Below are positions 19,972 to 41,131 of a stretch of DNA of 41,131 nucleotides, piece after piece. Both the position numbers and the translations under genes were made by a program. Below the pieces are notes generated by a model that was not told the origin of the DNA, made no database searches, and saw only the letters and a program-made list of their open reading frames with translations. The stretch comes from Chitinophagales bacterium (GTDB taxonomy: Bacteria > Bacteroidota > Bacteroidia > Chitinophagales > BACL12), in assembly GCA_014380545.1 (NCBI GenBank), contig JACMJP010000092.1:1-41131 (forward strand). The letters are read 5' to 3'. The number at the start of each line of letters is the position of its first letter. Position 1 is the first letter of the stretch.

Positions 19972-20805
19972 TTAAAATTCCCAGAGCTGATGCTCAAATT
20001 CGAATATTTCATTTTTTACACGATCACTTTCCAGTACCTGGTCAATTCCGGCAGCGTATGCATTAATAAACCTGTCATACACATTATCTTCTTTAATTAC
20101 ATAACTGCTAAAATAACGGTTCTCAAAAATATCCTCGAATGTGAAATACCTTGCACTGTTCTTTGTATTAAATACTTCAATGCGTATCATGTGTTCCCGC
20201 ATATCCGGATAATATATCCAGAACATATCTTCCTCACCAATAGGCTCACCTGTCGCCTGGTCAATTCTTTCTTTAACAGGAGCTATACCAACAATGCGCA
20301 CTTGCAGAGTTGAGGTTTCTTCATCAAATATCCAGTCTTCCTTTATTTTTAATTTCTTTACTTCCATGTAATTAAATGTAACGGGAACTGTTCTTATTTC
20401 TTCTTCATATGTTTCTTCATTAAATAAATAAACAGTATCAACCCTGTTGAATTTATTTTGAACATCTTCTACAGTAAAAGCATTTTCAGCTTTAAAATCA
20501 TCATAAAGTGGGCTATAGGCAGTGAGTTCACCTGCAATTACAAGGTTATATATTCTGTCCATAAATGGATCTTTGGGCCAGGAAAAAGGCAGGTTCATTT
20601 TCTCCCTGAAGTCAATAACTCTCCAAACTCTTTTTTCCCAAAATACATCCGCCTCTCTTATGTGATCATATGGAAGTATTTCACGGGACGTAATTAACTC
20701 CCTGTCATAAATCCCGTCTCTTTTTTCTTCCGAAGTTGCTTGCGCAAATATTGAAAATGACGAGAAAAGGAATGCTGCAAAAAAGAATTTTGATATGCTG
20801 TTCAT
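19972..20805 (-). CDS. gldN: T9SS/gliding protein GldN (PorN)
   Basis: Signal peptide; RDGIYDRELITSREILPYDHIREADVFWEKRVWRVIDFREKMNLPF; gene order. Confidence 0.94.
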   Translation of the reverse strand: MNSISKFFFAAFLFSSFSIFAQATSEEKRDGIYDRELITSREILPYDHIREADVFWEKRVWRVIDFREKMNLPFSWPKDPFMDRIYNLVIAGELTAYSPLYDDFKAENAFTVEDVQNKFNRVDTVYLFNEETYEEEIRTVPVTFNYMEVKKLKIKEDWIFDEETSTLQVRIVGIAPVKERIDQATGEPIGEEDMFWIYYPDMREHMIRIEVFNTKNSARYFTFEDIFENRYFSSYVIKEDNVYDRFINAYAAGIDQVLESDRVKNEIFEFEHQLWEF

Positions 20806-20820
20806 AGCCTTATAATTTTA

Positions 20821-22413
20821 TTATATAAGTTTAAATGTTGTACTTACTGATCTTGTTGTTCCATCAGGCATGCGCACTTTTACATCATTCAACATAATCC
20901 TGTCACCCGGTTTTGCTTTTTTCTTTATTTCCTGCATCAGTGAAGTAAATCCCGGACCCTTTGCATAATCCGAAACAAGACTACCACCGCCTGCAGGTAC
21001 ATATACTAACTCAAATCCAACAACCTGGTAAGGCACCTGGAAGACGAAGTCAACATTTTTTGCATCTACACGATCGGTAATAGTAAATTCAGACTTTTTT
21101 ATAGTTCCGCCTTTTGATGTACTTAAATATGGATATGGATCAGGAATACGACGTACTCTGAATTCATTTTTATATGATTTAACTCCCTCCGGTGTATTAA
21201 CGGTTACATTAATATTATCAACCCCCGGGCTACTTGGGTTTGCTGTATATTCTTCCCCTTTAATTTTTTTAATGTTACAGCCTGAAGCAGAAACTTTATC
21301 AGAAACATACCCCGGTACTGAAATTTTAATCGGGTTTTCAATTCCAACATAAAGTACATTCATTGAAGTTGGAGAAACAACAGCTCCACCCACTTCAAAT
21401 GTTTCATAGCCAAAATCGAAAGGGTAATACTTAAATTTATCTGAATTTGGTACGGCCATTTTAACAACACCCTGATAAGTAGGTGCACCGGAAGCCGCTT
21501 CCTTAATTTTACCCATACCATTAACAACGTCAACCTTTCTTGCGCCGCTCAATGGAATTTCAGCTTCAGTTCCTTCAATCACATTATAATCGCCATTGGC
21601 ATCTTTAATTACTTTTCCATTAAAGCTACCGAGGTACACTTCAGGATTAGCCTGCTTGGATGTTGCTGCAACAAAGATGTCAGCCGTATATTCATTGCCC
21701 CGCTTTACATAAGCTGTAGGCGCTACAACACGGGCCACCATCTGGTCTATCTTGTAGTCGAACTTATCTATATTGGCTCCGAGAACATCCAGTATGGAAT
21801 TTTCAGCACTTCTCGCATCCTGCTGAAGCTTGGTGAGAATGGTTGTAACGGCGATTGCCGGTACCCTGTCAAAGTTATATTCAGCCCAGTCTTTTTTAGA
21901 ATCAGCAGGTACATCGGTAACTTTTAAAGGAATATCTATACTCGCATCATTTCCTACAAGGGCAAGAAATTTACCCCTCGCTTCCTCTATCTTTTGTTTG
22001 AGTTCTTCAGCCTTTCCTTCCTTTAATAAAAGGTGGCTGGTTTTTTCAGTTTCCCCTTCTGTTTTAAGGAATTTATTTGGGTCTTCTGTATTTTCCCCGC
22101 CGGCAGCGACTTTTATCTCCTCTTTCAGCGTTTCTACCCATGCTACAAAATCATTACTGATAGTTTGAGCCTGCTGGGCATTTGCCAGCATTTGCTGGGT
22201 ATTTGGCCTGTTATCTTTTGCAGCTGCAGAATTAATAGCAGCCATCATAGAAGTGCTCTTCTGCGTTAATATGTCGTTACTGTCGGATATGCCTCTGTTA
22301 ACAAGATTAAAGGCATTCAGTATCTCAGCAGAAACATTCAGTGCAAGCATGGCGGTTAATACCAGGTACATGAGGTTAATCATGAGCTGGCGGGGTTCCT
22401 TAGGTATTGACAT
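20821..22413 (-). CDS. gldM: T9SS/gliding protein GldM (PorM)
   Basis: PKEPRQLMINLMYLVLTAMLALNVSAEILNAFNLVNRGI; gene order. Confidence 0.96.
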   Translation of the reverse strand: MSIPKEPRQLMINLMYLVLTAMLALNVSAEILNAFNLVNRGISDSNDILTQKSTSMMAAINSAAAKDNRPNTQQMLANAQQAQTISNDFVAWVETLKEEIKVAAGGENTEDPNKFLKTEGETEKTSHLLLKEGKAEELKQKIEEARGKFLALVGNDASIDIPLKVTDVPADSKKDWAEYNFDRVPAIAVTTILTKLQQDARSAENSILDVLGANIDKFDYKIDQMVARVVAPTAYVKRGNEYTADIFVAATSKQANPEVYLGSFNGKVIKDANGDYNVIEGTEAEIPLSGARKVDVVNGMGKIKEAASGAPTYQGVVKMAVPNSDKFKYYPFDFGYETFEVGGAVVSPTSMNVLYVGIENPIKISVPGYVSDKVSASGCNIKKIKGEEYTANPSSPGVDNINVTVNTPEGVKSYKNEFRVRRIPDPYPYLSTSKGGTIKKSEFTITDRVDAKNVDFVFQVPYQVVGFELVYVPAGGGSLVSDYAKGPGFTSLMQEIKKKAKPGDRIMLNDVKVRMPDGTTRSVSTTFKLI

Positions 22414-22458
22414 ATATTATTTCCTTTTAAATTTTAATAAATTATTTTACCTAAAAAA

Positions 22459-23274
22459 TTATTTAGCTCCCATACTCATTGCAGAAAGCATATTGCCATA
22501 TACACGGTTCAACGCAGATAAGTTGCTTGATAATTGCCCGATCTCTTCACGATATTTTTGAGTATCAGTCAATGATTCATTCAGATTATCCATAGCTGAA
22601 TTTAAGCTACCATAGAAACGGTTCATTGCCTTTAGGTGATTATTGGTATCCTGTAATTCAAGTTCGTAAATTGCATTTAACTGGCTTAAATTTTTAGTTA
22701 CCATTTGCACCTGCTCATGATACTTTGTTGTATCTACTGATGAGGCTGTAATTTGCGCCATTGCATTTGCAGCATTATGATAAGCTTCCCGCATTTCAGT
22801 AACAGCAACAGTTGCTGACTTAATATTTGTAGCATATTCATTTGTATTCAAGGCAGCGTCATGCACATCAGAAAGTTTTTCTATGTTCTCTCCCAAACGT
22901 TTCAGGTTATCGCCAAGCCGCTCAATCATCACTGGTTCAACTTTGCTTTCCTCCAGCATTTTATCAAGCTGGCGGGTAACACTTTCTTTTGGTTCTAATT
23001 TGTGTATTTTTTTCCCGGACCTTGCTTCTTCCACTTCAGGTGAAACATGTAAATCCGGATATATCTTCTCCCAATAATAGTCTCTGTGAGGTGGAATAAT
23101 TCCAAGCATTAAGAATAAAAATGCTTCTGTGAGCATACCTACCATGAGCATTAAGTCTGCAAAAGGTAAGTGAAGGATTTTAAATAATGCACCTACAAGT
23201 ACTATAGAAGCACCTGCACCGATTACAAAGTTTTTGATACGTTTAAAACGTTCGGTCTCGAAAAATGCTGACAT
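22459..23274 (-). CDS. gldL: T9SS/gliding protein GldL (PorL)
   Basis: Two N-terminal TM helices, VGALFKILHLPFADLMLMVGMLTEAFLFLMLGI; gene order. Confidence 0.95.
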   Translation of the reverse strand: MSAFFETERFKRIKNFVIGAGASIVLVGALFKILHLPFADLMLMVGMLTEAFLFLMLGIIPPHRDYYWEKIYPDLHVSPEVEEARSGKKIHKLEPKESVTRQLDKMLEESKVEPVMIERLGDNLKRLGENIEKLSDVHDAALNTNEYATNIKSATVAVTEMREAYHNAANAMAQITASSVDTTKYHEQVQMVTKNLSQLNAIYELELQDTNNHLKAMNRFYGSLNSAMDNLNESLTDTQKYREEIGQLSSNLSALNRVYGNMLSAMSMGAK

Positions 23275-23395
23275 GTTTTAACTGTTTTTTGGTTTTAAAA
23301 TGATTATTACTTTTGAATTTAACTCTATATCGCTGATATAAAATGTGCCTATCAACGAATTACTTTACCATATTATTATAAGATGTGAAAAAAAA

Positions 23396-24694
23396 TTAGA
23401 AATCACTCATTGATCTTCCGAGGAATGGCATTACGCATCTGAACCCAACATAACATTTTGCTGTATCCTGAAATTCCCAATGGCGGCTACCTGTCTGAAT
23501 ATAATAACTGATATCCTTCCATGAACCACCTCTTATCACTTTTCTTTTCAATGCCGGCGGATCGCTGTCTTCCGCATCATATCTTATATCAGGGTTTTCA
23601 TCGTGAATGAACATATGAGCATTTTCATAAAATGCTGTTGAAGACCATTCACTAACATTACCTGCCATATTATATAAACCGAAATCATTAGGAGCATAAG
23701 AATATACATTCACAGTATAGTAGCCTCCATCTTCAGGATAATTTCCACGACCCGGTTTGAAGTTAGCAAGGAAACAACCTTTTGTATTTCTTACATAAGG
23801 TCCTCCCCATGGGTATGGCACCTGATCTCTGCCACCTCTTGCTGCATATTCCCATTCACTTTCAGTTGGTAAACGGAAATCATCAACAATTACTTCTTCA
23901 TGCAGAATTCTCCACCAGTTCCAAAATCTTGTCCTCCAATGATTGAATGCTGTTGCCTGATGCCAGTCAACACCTACTACCGGATATTCATCAAAAGCAG
24001 GGTGCGAAAAATATTGACGGGTCATTGGTTCATTGTAAGAATATGAATAATCATGAACCCAGCAAAGTGTATCCGGATAAACCCGAACAGTTTTTTCATC
24101 CTTAAATTCGCTGAGATATTTATCACGGTCTTTATTTAATGTTTTACTTGCCGCATCTTTCCAGTGGATCCAGTCATAAGTATATTGCAAACGATTTGCA
24201 TCCACGGTTCTATACCAGATGCTTTCACCGGGAGGCATTAATAATTCTTCAAGTTTAGCTTTATTGCCCTCATCTTCATCACCCGCCCAGTCAATCTCTG
24301 TTGACCAGTCTATAATTGGCGTTTCTGTTTTTTCCCCATCTTCATTTTCCTGATATTGTGCCAATAGCACATGGGCAATGGAATCTCTCACCCAGAATAC
24401 AAACTGGCGATACTCATTGTTTGTAATTTCAGCATCATCCATATAAAATCCCTGAATGGAGATGGATTTTTCCCTTTGCCATAGTGAATTGTTTACATCC
24501 TGATCGCTTTGGCCAATGTGTAATGTACCGGAAGGGATGTATACCATACCATAAGGATTAATAGGTTCCCACACAGGGCGATCCTGCATTCCGAGTAACT
24601 GACCTCTGTAAGTATCCCATGTTGAATTGCTACATCCTGAAATGACAAATGCCGAAATAATTACAGCCGTGACTAATGGTAGTTTTCTGTTCAT
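23396..24694 (-). CDS. gldK: T9SS/gliding lipoprotein GldK (PorK), FGE/SUMF1-like fold
   Basis: Lipoprotein signal VISGCSNS; GFYMDDAEITNNEYRQFV, RLPTESEWEYAARGG, GLYNMAGNVSEW, VIRGGSW, VGFRCV. Confidence 0.95.
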   Translation of the reverse strand: MNRKLPLVTAVIISAFVISGCSNSTWDTYRGQLLGMQDRPVWEPINPYGMVYIPSGTLHIGQSDQDVNNSLWQREKSISIQGFYMDDAEITNNEYRQFVFWVRDSIAHVLLAQYQENEDGEKTETPIIDWSTEIDWAGDEDEGNKAKLEELLMPPGESIWYRTVDANRLQYTYDWIHWKDAASKTLNKDRDKYLSEFKDEKTVRVYPDTLCWVHDYSYSYNEPMTRQYFSHPAFDEYPVVGVDWHQATAFNHWRTRFWNWWRILHEEVIVDDFRLPTESEWEYAARGGRDQVPYPWGGPYVRNTKGCFLANFKPGRGNYPEDGGYYTVNVYSYAPNDFGLYNMAGNVSEWSSTAFYENAHMFIHDENPDIRYDAEDSDPPALKRKVIRGGSWKDISYYIQTGSRHWEFQDTAKCYVGFRCVMPFLGRSMSDF

Positions 24695-25911: not shown

Positions 25912-27999
25912 TTAAAAAGATTTTAACTGTTGAATATATTCTTTGATGCTTATGACAGGAATCTGACAATTGTAGTTGCGACAATTAAAAATCCGGGATG
26001 TATCGTCTATAAATTTATTATTAAGTAAGGGGTAATTTATTTTACTACCATCTGTATCAATCATTATAATTCGATTTGGGTAGTATATCCTGTTAACTTC
26101 TTCCAGTAAGTCGAGTGCATCCACCCCGCAAATAGCAGTTTCTAGTATTGGATATGTGTATTGCAGAGCACCGATAAGCCACATACCAAATGAGGAAGGA
26201 TATTTAATAATATCCTCTTTTACTGATAAAAACATTTTATCAGCTCTCTCCTGTAAAGCCTTATCTCCGGTAATAATTGATATCTTAATTAAATTCGACA
26301 ACATCAATGCATTTCCTGATGGTGTCGCATGATCATACAATTCTTTATTGCGTAAAGGAATATCAGTCTGGTTTTTTTGCGTAAAATAAAATTGAATATC
26401 GTTTTCGTCTGAAAAATTATCAATTACGAAGTGATTTAAACTGATGGCTTCTTCAATGTAAAAAATATCGCCTGAAATTTCATAAAGGTCAATTAACGCA
26501 GTAATGAGTGATGCATAATCTTCAAGCATAGCCGGATATTTTGTAATATCATTTTTATAAGTATGGAATAATGCTGCGTCTGCTGATTGGTTCCTGAATA
26601 CTTTTAATACGAATTGTATATTCCTTTCCGCAGTTTCCTTATATTTAATATTATTTGTTGCTTTATATCCTGCAATGAAACCACTGCACATAAGAGCATT
26701 CCAGCTAAGAATTATTTTATCATCAAGTCCGGGTTTTATGCGCTTATCTCTTTCTGCAAGTAATTTTTGATTACATATTCGAAGTAACTTTTTTTCTTGC
26801 CCGTTAAGTTGTTTGAATTTTCCCTGCCCGTTCGGCAGGCGGTCGTTTTAATTCCTTTCTACATTCCGGTATAAAATATTTGTATGTTCCCAATTCCCGC
26901 TTTCAACAACATTAAATACTTTACAAAACCATGCAGCATCATCAATTAATATTTTTTCAATTTCTTCTTTACTCCATGTGTAAAATTTCCCTTCCACACC
27001 TTCTGAATCAGCATCATATGAGCTATAAAAACCGCCATCATTTGTCATCATTTCCTTCATGACAAATTGTAATGTTTCATCAACAATTCTTTTATATTCT
27101 TCATCGCCGGAAACCATGTATGCTTCTCCATATATCTGCACAAGCAATGCATTGTCGTACAACATTTTTTCAAAATGCGGAACAATCCATTTTCTATCAA
27201 CACTATATCTTGCAAAACCTCCTTCCAACTGATCATATATTCCGCCATATATCATTTTATAAAGAGATAAATGAATATGATCTGTTTCTTCTTTGTCGGT
27301 AGAATAAAAATTTTTACGCAATAAATATTTAAGTGTCATTGCTGATGGAAATTTTGGAGCGTTTCCAAACCCTCCTTCATCTGTATCAAAAAAACTTTTT
27401 AATGCTTTATGAATATCTGCTATTTCATTTTCTGATACAATTTTATTACCTGTATGCTGTATGTTTTCAATTTTAATCAAAGCATTATCCATTCTTCCCA
27501 GATACTCAAGCATTTTTTCTGCCTGCTGCTCAACAGTGTCTCTTTGTTTCTCAAAAGTTTCGTACACATAAATTAATACATCCATCCAGCTTGGCTTTCC
27601 ATAAGAGGGTTTTGGAGGAAAATAAGTGCCTCCGGTAAATGGTTTCAGCTCTTGTGTAAGAAACATATTTAATGGCCACCCTCCGCCGCCTGTTAAAACC
27701 TGACAAGCCTGCATATAAATATGATCAACATCCGGCCTTTCTTCACGGTCAATTTTTATATTCACAAAGAATTTATTCATGAAGGCTGCAGTTTTTTCGT
27801 CTTCAAAACTTTCCCGCTCCATAACATGGCACCAATGACATGCTGCATAACCTATGCTTACTAAGATAGGCTTATCTTCTTTTTTTGCTTTCTCAAAAGC
27901 CTCTGTTCCCCATGCAAACCATTCAACAGGATTGTGCGCATGCTGCAAAAGGTAAGGGCTTGTTTCATCAATTAACTTATTTGTGAATTTATGTATCAT
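25912..27999 (-). pseudogene. YyaL-like thioredoxin-domain protein (DUF255/SSP411 family) interrupted by one in-frame TAA at 26848-26850
   Basis: N-terminal ORF 26848-27999 ([31 protein letters not shown]) and C-terminal ORF 25912-26691 are in the same frame; intervening codons read KLLRICNQKLLAERDKRIKPGLDDKIILSWNALM. Confidence 0.85.
26823..26839. repeat. GC-rich palindrome next to the yyaL stop
   Basis: CCTGCC-CGTTC-GGCAGG. Confidence 0.6.
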
Positions 28000-36112: not shown

Positions 36113-37240
36113 CTAAATCTTTAGCTGCAATTGTGCAACAAACATATTTGCTGCATCAATTGCGTCACTTCCTGAAATCGGTTTTTTCCAATCAGTATGA
36201 ATAAAATTCAGTTGCAGCCTTGCATTATTATCAGGGAGAAAATTAAAAGCGATATTTCCAGTAATTGTAGAAAATTCATTTTCATCAATTGAAGATAAAG
36301 GATCAGTATTTTCAAATTTACCGCCTACTTCTAATAGTTTACACCATTTTTTATTGAGGTCAAATTTTAATAATGCCTGTGCTTCATATCCGCCCATATT
36401 AAAGTCTTCAATTTTTTTTGCTGCTGTTGTATCAGCATTATAGCTCAATACATTTGTTCCATTTAAATATTCACCTTCAATTAGCAGAGATACTTTGGAA
36501 TTTATTTTTTCCTGAATAGAAATATCAGCACTATAAGAGTTTCCAGTTTCATCTTTTAAACCAATTACCTGGTCAGTAACAGCAAGGCGAACTCCTTTAA
36601 TTGGAGTAAACTCAATGCGCCCTAAAATATTCTTCGATGAATTATCATCGTAACCAACTGATCTGTCACTTGCATTTACTGCAGCTAAATAATAATTAAG
36701 TGGTGTTTTGTCTTTCAGCAAATTTCCAAAGATCATAACACCCGGTTGATAAGAAGCTAAATAACTGTTCACAAATAAAATACTTGTGGGTCCACGGTCT
36801 ATCATGCGCAAATTATCGTAAGGAGTTAATTCGTCAAGTACAAAAGGAACAAGAAATTGCCCTGCACGAATTTGAAAACCATCTTTCAATTTAAAATTTG
36901 CATAAGCAAGTTCAATTGTTTTACCGGGTGTTGATGTTTTCAATTCCGGCAATTGCAAACGAATTGTTCCTGTTATTTTTTCAGAAAGCAAGAGATCAGT
37001 TTTAATCGCTGCTCTCCTTATTCTAAAATTATTATTAACCGGATCAGCATTAAATTTATTCTGAACATCAACACTATCTGTGAGGGAAGATTCAAACCGG
37101 TTTTGTAAAATAAATTGCCACTTAATTGTAGGGTTAAATATCTTAGTGTTTTCTGTTTGCGTAAAAGCTGCATTACTATAAAACAAAAAACAAGCGATTA
37201 ACATAAGTAAAGATCTTTGCATGTGGTAGGTTTTGCGCAA
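36113..37240 (-). CDS. Phosphate-selective porin O/P-like outer-membrane protein (copy 1)
   Basis: Signal peptide; RFESSLTDSVDVQNKFNADPVNNNFRIRR...RAGQFLVPFVLDELTPYDNLRMIDR; C-terminal LQLKI. Confidence 0.85.
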   Translation of the reverse strand: MRKTYHMQRSLLMLIACFLFYSNAAFTQTENTKIFNPTIKWQFILQNRFESSLTDSVDVQNKFNADPVNNNFRIRRAAIKTDLLLSEKITGTIRLQLPELKTSTPGKTIELAYANFKLKDGFQIRAGQFLVPFVLDELTPYDNLRMIDRGPTSILFVNSYLASYQPGVMIFGNLLKDKTPLNYYLAAVNASDRSVGYDDNSSKNILGRIEFTPIKGVRLAVTDQVIGLKDETGNSYSADISIQEKINSKVSLLIEGEYLNGTNVLSYNADTTAAKKIEDFNMGGYEAQALLKFDLNKKWCKLLEVGGKFENTDPLSSIDENEFSTITGNIAFNFLPDNNARLQLNFIHTDWKKPISGSDAIDAANMFVAQLQLKI

Positions 37241-37320
37241 AGTTGAAAGTATTTATCCTTCAAATAGTAAATGAAGTGTTAATCTTAAGGCCGAAAATAA
37301 AACTTTGTGTAAAGGAGCAC

Positions 37321-37344
37321 AAAAAAACCCTGTCTTTATCAGGG
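37321..37344 (-). terminator. Terminator between tandem porin genes
   Basis: CCCTG(37328-37332)/CAGGG(37340-37344), A7 on + strand = U-tract on - strand. Confidence 0.65.
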
Positions 37345-37370
37345 CGTAACCTAAAATATCTTCTGTATTC

Positions 37371-38489
37371 TTATATTTTTATTTGCAATTGGGCAACAAA
37401 CATATTAGCAGCAACAATCGCCTCACTACCTGAAATCGGTTTTTCCCAATCAGTATGAATAAAATTCAACTGTAATCTTGCAGTATTATCAGGTAAAAAA
37501 GTAAATCCAATATTTCCGGTAATTGTAGAGAAAGCATTATCGTCAACATCAATTAAAGGATCAGTATTTTCATATTTAGCACCAACTTCAAAGGTCTTAC
37601 ACCAGCTTTTATTAATATCAATTTTAAATAATGCCTGGGCAAAATATCCGCTTAAATTATTTTCATCAATTGCAGGTGCAGTTGTATCTGCAACAAAAGC
37701 AGTAATATTTGAACCCACAATATATTCTCCTTCAACAATCAGTTTTGTTTTTTCTGAAATATTTTTAATAAGCTGCAAATCTGCTCCGTAAGAAGTAGTG
37801 TTAGTTGAATCATTTAAGAATATTTCCTGTCCGCTTATTCCAATTCTAATTCCTTTAACAGGTGAAAACTCTATTCTGCCTACAAGGTTTTTCTGTGAAT
37901 TATCATCATAAGGCAACGCCCTTGAACTTCCGTTTACCAAAGCCAGATAGTAATTTAATGGTGTTTTATCTTTCAAAAAATTTCCAAAAACCATTAACCC
38001 CGGCTGGTAACTCGCCTGGTTATTACTTACAATCAACACACTGGTCGTTCCCCTGTCAATCATTCTCAGATCTTCATGGCTTGTTAATTCATCCAGTTCA
38101 TACGGTGTCTTAAATTGCCCAAACCTTATCTGCAGGGCATCATTTGCTCTATATTCACCATAAGCAAGCTCAATCACATTTCCATAGTTACTTGTACTGG
38201 TAGATTTTAATTGTGGTAATTGCATACGAATAACCCCGCTCCATTTATCATTTAATTTTATGTCTGCTCTTAATTCAAGTCTCCTTAATCTGAAATTATT
38301 ATTAACCGGATCCGCATTAAATTTATTCTGTACATCTACACTATCTGTCAGGGAAGATTCGAATCTTGATTGCACCAGACCCTTCATCCTAATCGTAGGG
38401 TTAAAAGTTGATTCACTATTTTGTGCAAAAAGGTTTGAAGAAAATTGGATGATCATTACACAAACCAGTAAGCAGTAGAGTTTTCCCAT
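37371..38489 (-). CDS. Phosphate-selective porin O/P-like outer-membrane protein (copy 2)
   Basis: Same motifs as copy 1: RFESSLTDSVDVQNKFNADPVNNNFRLRR...RFGQFKTPYELDELTSHEDLRMIDRGTTSVL; C-terminal LQIKI. Confidence 0.86.
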   Translation of the reverse strand: MGKLYCLLVCVMIIQFSSNLFAQNSESTFNPTIRMKGLVQSRFESSLTDSVDVQNKFNADPVNNNFRLRRLELRADIKLNDKWSGVIRMQLPQLKSTSTSNYGNVIELAYGEYRANDALQIRFGQFKTPYELDELTSHEDLRMIDRGTTSVLIVSNNQASYQPGLMVFGNFLKDKTPLNYYLALVNGSSRALPYDDNSQKNLVGRIEFSPVKGIRIGISGQEIFLNDSTNTTSYGADLQLIKNISEKTKLIVEGEYIVGSNITAFVADTTAPAIDENNLSGYFAQALFKIDINKSWCKTFEVGAKYENTDPLIDVDDNAFSTITGNIGFTFLPDNTARLQLNFIHTDWEKPISGSEAIVAANMFVAQLQIKI

Positions 38490-38775: not shown

Positions 38776-39126
38776 ATGGGACCTGCATCACTTATAGTTT
38801 TGATTTTAGCTGCTGTAGCATTTTCTGCCGGAGGAATTCTACTTTCAAAAGTTGTTTTGAGGGCAAGTAAAAATGCTGTGAAGGGAGAACCCTATGAATG
38901 CGGTGTTCCTACCGTCGGTCCGAGCTGGGTTCAGTTTAATGTGGGTTATTATTTATTCGCACTCATCTTTTTAATTTTTGATGTGGAGCTGATTTTCCTT
39001 TATCCATGGGCAGTTACGGTTCAAAAACTTGGTATGTTTGCTTTTGTAGAAGCTGTTATCTTTCTATTCATATTATTTATGGGATTTCTTTATGCGCACA
39101 AAAAAGGAGCTTTAAAATGGATGTAA
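38776..39126 (+). CDS. nuoA: NADH-quinone oxidoreductase subunit A
   Basis: [43 protein letters not shown]. Confidence 0.96.
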
Positions 39127-39671
39127 AAAACCCTTATATGGATGGCAATCCTTTTCCGGGTGATGTGCACCAAACAGCGGGAGGAGGGATTTTAGTAAGC
39201 AAATTAGACGATGTGATCAATTGGGCAAGAAGTAATTCTTTATGGCCGCTCGTATTCGGAACCAGTTGTTGTGCTATTGAAATGATGAGTACAGCTTCCG
39301 CAAAATACGATTGGGGCCGTTTTGGTTTTGAAGTGGCAAGAGCAACACCCAGGCAAGCTGATGTAATTATTATTGCCGGAACCATTGTAAATAAAATGGC
39401 TCCCGTATTAAAAAGATTATATGATCAGATGCCGGATCCTAAATACGTAATTGCCATGGGAGCATGCGCAACAAGCGGCGGTCCTTTTTTCTATAATACA
39501 TACAGTGTAGTGAAGGGGGCGGATCATATTATTCCTGTGGACGTTTACATTGCCGGTTGCCCACCAAGACCTGAAGCATTATTGCATGCAATGATGACCT
39601 TGCAGCAAAAAATAAAAGCCGGTGGAAAAAGAGAAAAGATAATGATTGAGAAATATTCAGACAAAGTTTGA
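39117..39671 (+). CDS. nuoB: NADH-quinone oxidoreductase subunit B
   Basis: [78 protein letters not shown] at 39117 overlaps nuoA. Confidence 0.97.
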
Positions 39672-39697
39672 AGATCGAATAATTAAGAAAAGAATAA

Positions 39698-40153
39698 ATG
39701 AATATTGAAGAGTTAAAAATTAAATTACCAGAAATTCAACCTTCAATCACATTTGAAGAAGGCGGAGAATTTTTAAATTTGAATATTGATGCAAAAGAAT
39801 TCAAAGATTTTGCGCAGATGATCTTTAATAATGATAATTTATCTTTTAATTATTTATTTTGCCTAACATGTGTTGATTGGAAAACACATCTCACAATGGT
39901 GTATCATTTTGAATCAACAAAACACCGGCACATTATTGTAATTAAATCGAAGTTAGATAGAGAAAATCCGGAAATAGAGACTGTAAGTGACATTTGGCGC
40001 ACAGCAGAATTACATGAACGGGAAGTATATGATTTGTTTGGAGTACGGTTTATTAACCATCCTGACCTAAGAAGATTATTTTTAACGGAAGATTGGAACG
40101 GGTATCCTTTGAGAAAAGATTATGAAGATCCGGTTAATATGATAAAATTATAA
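39698..40153 (+). CDS. nuoC: NADH-quinone oxidoreductase subunit C
   Basis: TAELHEREVYDLFGVRFINHPDLRRLFLTEDWNGYPLRKDY. Confidence 0.96.
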   Translation: MNIEELKIKLPEIQPSITFEEGGEFLNLNIDAKEFKDFAQMIFNNDNLSFNYLFCLTCVDWKTHLTMVYHFESTKHRHIIVIKSKLDRENPEIETVSDIWRTAELHEREVYDLFGVRFINHPDLRRLFLTEDWNGYPLRKDYEDPVNMIKL

Positions 40154-40183
40154 AATAAATCACCTGAGAATTTTTAATTAACG

Positions 40184-41131
40184 ATGAGCGACCTGAGTCA
40201 TTTAATGGAAGATGTTATACCAGAATCTTCAACCAAAAAAAATCTTGATGAAGGCGATCTTATTATAAACATCGGCCCGCAGCATCCATCTACAAATGGA
40301 GTGTTGCATCTTGTTATTACACTTAATGGCGAAACAGTAAAAAAAGTTGAACCACATCTCGGATATATTCATCGCTCTATTGAAAAAATGTGTGAGAGTT
40401 TAAGTTATCGCCAGTTTATTTATTCTACTTCCCGCATGGATTATTTATCATCACACATAAATAATCATGGTTGCGCATTATGTGTTGAAAAAGGTTTACA
40501 GGTAGAAATACCAAAAAGGGCACAGGTAATTCGTGTGCTCATGGATGAATTAACTAGACTTGCAAGTCACCAGTTATGGTGGGGAGCCATGGCAATGGAT
40601 GTTGGCGCACTCACTCCTTTTTTCCTTGCATTCAGGGAAAGGGAAATGATAAATGAAGTGATGGAAAAAACATGCGGCGCAAGATTAACGATGAATTATA
40701 TTGTTCCCGGCGGAGTCATGTTTGAACTGCATCCCGATTTTCAAAAAGATGTAAAAGAATTTATCCGTTTTTTCAAAACAAAAATTGATGAATATGATGA
40801 ATTGGTTACCGGAAATATTATTTTTCAAAACCGCATGAAAAATGTTGGATATATTTCAAAACAAGATGCGATTAGTTATGGCTGCAGCGGGCCAACTGCA
40901 AGGGCAAGCGGAGTAAATTGCGATATCAGAAAATTATATCCATACGATGTATATAATGAAGTTGAATTTGAAGAAATTATTGAAAGTGATGGAGATTGTT
41001 TTGCAAGATATTTAGTGCGCATGAAAGAAATGCGTCAATGTTTAAGTATCATTGAGCAATTAATTGACAATATTCCTGAAGGAGATTTCCAGGCAAAAAC
41101 AAAAGCTGTATTAAAATTGCCGAAAGGAGAA
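40184..41131 (+). CDS. nuoD: NADH-quinone oxidoreductase subunit D (truncated by window end)
   Basis: Translated by hand: INIGPQHPSTNGVLHLVITLNGETVKKVEPHLGYIHRSIEKMCESLSYRQFIYSTSRMDYLSSH...GCSGPTARASGVNCDIRK. Confidence 0.96.
   Translation, partial: MSDLSHLMEDVIPESSTKKNLDEGDLIINIGPQHPSTNGVLHLVITLNGETVKKVEPHLGYIHRSIEKMCESLSYRQFIYSTSRMDYLSSHINNHGCALCVEKGLQVEIPKRAQVIRVLMDELTRLASHQLWWGAMAMDVGALTPFFLAFREREMINEVMEKTCGARLTMNYIVPGGVMFELHPDFQKDVKEFIRFFKTKIDEYDELVTGNIIFQNRMKNVGYISKQDAISYGCSGPTARASGVNCDIRKLYPYDVYNEVEFEEIIESDGDCFARYLVRMKEMRQCLSIIEQLIDNIPEGDFQAKTKAVLKLPKGE

Follow-up and report, generated by a model that had tools for sequence, protein, structure and literature searches.

An asparagine codon in place of the quinone-site histidine of NuoD in a Chitinophagales genome

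The histidine of the beta1-beta2 loop of NuoD pairs with an aspartate and is usually assumed to be the proton donor to the reduced quinone (PMC7434922; PMC8119997). In recent quinol-bound structures this residue is not hydrogen-bonded to the quinol, and water remains an alternative donor; which group directly donates the second proton is not settled, water being a possibility (PMC13083836). Simulations indicate that either the tyrosine of the site or the His/Asp pair can supply a proton, and mutants of the His/Tyr/Asp set, His to Arg included, retain partial activity, as cited in the same study (PMC12890310). A literature search found no paper on natural replacement of this histidine in complex I. 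A naturally occurring complex I that is intact except for asparagine at this position would make a useful test of whether the loop histidine donates the proton directly.

The locus described here resembles the 11-subunit complex I of Desulfitobacterium hafniense DCB-2 (PMC11238625) and of the relatives G003 and G005 in the content and order of its assembled genes, in NuoD type and in the presence of Tyr87 and Asp139, but its NuoD reads Asn at His38. The 14-subunit complex I (Thermus Nqo1-14, Escherichia coli NuoA-N, mitochondrial) has a NuoD that is homologous and shares the layout of the quinone site; it differs in that the relatives' operon lacks nuoEFG, for which there also appears to be no room in that of the window, and in the replacement of His by Asn in the window. 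The large subunits of the sulfane sulfur reductase MBS and the group 4 hydrogenase MBH are paralogous to the window NuoD. As described (PMC7684303), MBS lacks an equivalent of His38 and resembles the window NuoD in this respect; however, it also lacks an equivalent of Tyr87 and reduces polysulfide rather than quinone, whereas the window NuoD keeps both Tyr87 and the GPQHP motif.

The nuoABCD cluster and its complex

The window, that is, the whole stretch of 41,131 nt that was analyzed, contains a nuoABCD cluster at positions 38776-41131, with the following features.

38776..39126 (+): nuoA, 116 aa, with which the cluster begins; open reading frame, NCBIfam NuoA models below cut-off but specific
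39117..39671 (+): nuoB, 184 aa, bearing cluster N2; NCBIfam TIGR01957 and NF005012 above cut-off
39698..40153 (+): nuoC, 151 aa; PF00329, E = 1.4e-40
40184..41131 (+): nuoD, 316 aa up to the end of the contig, which truncates it, homologue of the 49-kDa subunit / Nqo4; PF00346, E = 1.3e-66, and NF004739
40295..40297 (+): codon AAT for Asn38, where Thermus (His38) and mammals (His59) have the quinone-site His; sequence and alignment
40442..40444 (+): codon for Tyr87, the partner quinone ligand, kept; alignment
40598..40600 (+): codon for Asp139, the partner of the His, kept; alignment

The translation of 40184-41131 (+) starts with MSDLSHLMEDVIPESSTKKNLDEGDLIINIGPQHPSTNGVLHL, and the reading frame is open throughout its readable part, leaving the contig at residue 316. 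Despite the truncation, the product passes the curated NuoD cut-off (NF004739, 361.3 bits versus a cut-off of 360) and that of PF00346. Among its PDB matches, MBH and formate hydrogenlyase score far below complex I. A paralogue with another function was rejected on the basis of the NuoD cut-off and of the position of the protein in the tree among NuoD of the 11-subunit type.

Direct reading of the sequence gives the motif GPQHPSTNG, with AAT at 40295-40297; a single C-to-A change separates this codon from one for His. The first-pass annotation, which had read QHPSTNG with Asn replacing the second His of HPxTHG at residue 38 next to a retained partner Tyr, was therefore correct on all of these points. 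The second His of this motif is a catalytic residue and not a family cut-off. Residues 24-305 of the window protein align in phmmer with residues 45-326 of NDUFS2 at equal length, so that N38 corresponds to His59, Y87 to Tyr108 and D139 to Asp160 in mature mammalian numbering; a wrong frame or misalignment was rejected on the same evidence. Tyr87 and Asp139 are both invariant in the aligned sequences of the 14-subunit type (18/18) and of the 11-subunit type (37/37, the window counted). With a single active-site residue replaced, the window protein is otherwise a typical subunit of a known complex rather than an enzyme of a new type.

In G003, G005 and a Lutibacter genome (L032), nuoD is directly followed by nuoH, I, J, K and L, without nuoEFG, and nuoM is also present after nuoL in G003 and G005. 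In the window's own genome nuoD ends contig C212, while contig C263 carries nuoH, I, J, K, L and M, the first and last of them partial. The nuoD-nuoH join is unassembled, the missing ends of the two genes amounting to about 590 bases by comparison with G003. Judged by this gene content, the window nuoD is probably part of an 11-subunit complex I (nuoABCD/HIJKLM, no nuoEFG) split across contigs. Genes of the 14-subunit type occur elsewhere in the same genome (nuoH-nuoI on contig C294 and nuoF on contig C67), and no nuoD of this type was found in the assembly. Of the operon partners that the first-pass annotation had proposed to look for, nuoH to nuoM were thus recovered, in whole or in part, on C263; nuoEFG are missing from the relatives' operons, and the nuoF found belongs to the 14-subunit type.

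The gene adjacent to nuoA in G003 encodes pyruvate:ferredoxin oxidoreductase (PFOR), a genomic hint of a ferredoxin-type donor; the arrangement accords with proposals for D. hafniense (PMC11238625). No PFOR gene lies beside nuoA in the window or in G005, and the window's own genome has only weak partial matches to PFOR. By analogy with 11-subunit enzymes that have been characterized, the complex should transfer electrons to (mena)quinone from a low-potential donor, for example ferredoxin, with concomitant proton pumping.

A tandem pair of very similar genes for porin-like proteins (375 and 372 aa; 36113-38489, minus strand) adjoins nuoA in the window. In G003 one porin-like gene sits beyond the PFOR gene, so that the interval between nuoA and the porin genes seems to have either gained or lost PFOR.

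Occurrence of the asparagine state

The NuoD alignment comprised 56 sequences, of which 37, including the window, are of the 11-subunit type and 18 of the 14-subunit type; one is an outlier. His38 is present in 54 of the 55 other proteins, being absent only from the window and from Lutibacter L032. This result bears on whether Asn is common across NuoD of Bacteroidota, the alignment check suggested in the first-pass annotation, and answers it in the negative. Relatives from the same family, 84% and 80% identical to the window NuoD, carry His, as does the rest of the order as sampled; the substitution is not clade-wide, as had been considered, and a lineage-specific variant of complex I finds no support beyond the one genome. 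The quinone site may be a changed one, which was the other reading offered in the first-pass annotation.

Pattern searches extended the comparison. A codon at position 38 starting with a base other than C was matched solely by the window in 396 genomes of the phylum, and a looser form of this pattern retrieved the window and 14 other matches from 399 genomes of the order, neither pattern covering Arg, Gln, Leu or Pro codons. None of the 14 lies in a GPQHP or GPTHP context, and their number is close to that of the reversed control. The His/Asn motif occurs in 249 genomes of the order sample, and among the matches listed all but the window have His; order genomes beyond those matches are covered for the Asn state by the non-C-codon search. 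Across 84,980 species the Asn pattern gave 16 hits, two of them derived from nuoD: an intact Lutibacter gene and a truncated Bradyrhizobium frame. With His allowed, this pattern recovers 45 of the 55 known NuoD, so some Asn cases may have been missed, and the collection may omit records close to the window's own genome. Fifteen of the 16 global hits, like the 14 order matches, were rejected as intact NuoD. The Bradyrhizobium frame (strain sp. 164, L040) reads GPQHPAANG and then continues into unrelated sequence; it looks like the remnant of a decayed nuoD. At present the finding chiefly illustrates how seldom this residue changes.

In the maximum-likelihood tree the window and Lutibacter fall in different groups, and two independent changes are needed. 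Both intact Asn cases are single tips, and both come from MAGs. All other matches from the genus of the Lutibacter genome have His, and the Lutibacter MAG (contig JAUYUA010000043.1) differs from three congeners by one C-to-A base in an otherwise identical 29-mer (GGCCCTCAACACCCGGCAGCTCACGGGGT versus ...GCTAACGGGGT). On the sequences compared, Asn in the window is an isolated change confined to one terminal branch. Such a single-tip, single-base pattern fits a very recent mutation, a segregating polymorphism or a consensus error alike, and it speaks against a maintained adaptive variant.

The surrounding genes are well conserved. At positions invariant among the relatives the window shows no deviation in nuoA (27), nuoB (80), nuoC (13), nuoH (80) or nuoI (20), 220 in total, and compensating changes at such positions in these five subunits were rejected accordingly. 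The nuoD gene has three deviations at 95 invariant positions, H38N, D181E and S286C (Fisher p = 0.027). In a leave-one-out test other NuoD proteins bear up to five unique deviations; the window nuoD is thus not exceptional overall. Comparison with three relatives gives dN of 0.12-0.15, with dS above 2 or saturated, which indicates strong purifying selection on nuoD.

Three genomes of the window's family (G001, G002 and G004; 83-94% complete) have no NuoD match, and both the 11- and the 14-subunit types are present in genus g4 of this family. Complex I seems to be patchily distributed within the family.

Origin and consequences of the replacement

The reading preferred here, to which about an even chance is assigned, is that H38N is a recent, real and tolerated missense change in an otherwise ordinary 11-subunit complex I; this reading takes it that the base is genuine and the protein produced, and its account of turnover is likewise inferred. 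The change would have arisen by the single C-to-A step. Of the two protons, one would come from Tyr87 and the second from the Asp139/water network or, alternatively, the quinol would depart as an anion; Asn38 could hydrogen-bond the headgroup but could not carry the imidazole proton relay. The change would be tolerated because Tyr87 and Asp139/water can still protonate the quinone and because the published mutants keep partial activity. An enzyme with Asn38 would most likely still work, perhaps more slowly. Counting against a tolerated missense change, the base comes from a single MAG split into 547 contigs and lies 837 bases from the contig end, and the only other intact Asn case is likewise a single base in a single MAG.

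The same facts are what a consensus artefact would produce, in which the true codon would be CAT (His) and the A at 40295 would be an error of sequencing, assembly or strain mixture. Such an error, unlikely though still to be reckoned with, would account for a single base in a single genome whose fragmented assembly ends a contig in this very gene, for the like case in Lutibacter, and for a change at a residue that is elsewhere nearly invariant. However, the nuo genes on the window's contig are free of frameshifts and stops, and D181E and S286C are also unusual in nuoD, which fits real gene evolution better than one stray error. Apparent changes seen in a single MAG call for read checks ahead of interpretation.

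It is improbable that the complex is in early loss of function, the 14-subunit complex I having made the 11-subunit one dispensable and H38N being damaging and not yet removed by selection. The nuoH, nuoI and nuoF genes of the 14-subunit type elsewhere in the genome, the lack of the PFOR gene found beside nuoA in G003, with only weak partial matches in the genome, and the decay of the third Asn match, that of Bradyrhizobium, are consistent with this, but every readable nuo gene is intact and conserved, with invariant positions outside nuoD unchanged. Moreover, many relatives retain both complexes with His, G005 has His although its nuoA likewise has no PFOR neighbour, and no second NuoD was found in the Lutibacter genome.

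An adaptive variant, in which 11-subunit complexes, fed by a low-potential donor, can do without the His relay and Asn was selected to retune the quinone site, is highly improbable: both intact Asn cases do belong to 11-subunit complexes that retain Tyr and Asp, and the Lutibacter genome shows one NuoD only, but no sister species shares Asn in either group, nuoA, B, C, H and I carry no compensating change at invariant positions, and two cases are uninformative on enrichment because the 11-subunit type is common in these Bacteroidota.

Apart from the preferred reading of a tolerated change in the window, there is a small chance that in both 11-subunit complexes of Bacteroidota Asn arose independently and is genuine, fixed and functional; these enzymes would then perform quinone reduction and proton pumping without the His relay. 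If so, Tyr and Asp/water would be pointed to as sufficient proton donors.

Other features of the window

Four consecutive genes at 19972-24694 (minus strand) resemble gldK, gldL, gldM and gldN by their sequence, and may encode a gliding motility / type IX secretion core. A gene of the DUF255/Thioredox_DsbH (YyaL-type) family at 25912-27999 (minus strand) runs in one frame, which one in-frame stop (26848-26850) interrupts. Beside this stop, at 26823-26839, is a perfect palindrome-like element, CCTGCCCGTTCGGCAGG (chance expectation of 0.09 for the pattern). Its position right beside the stop suggests that the DUF255 gene may have been broken when a short inverted repeat inserted there.
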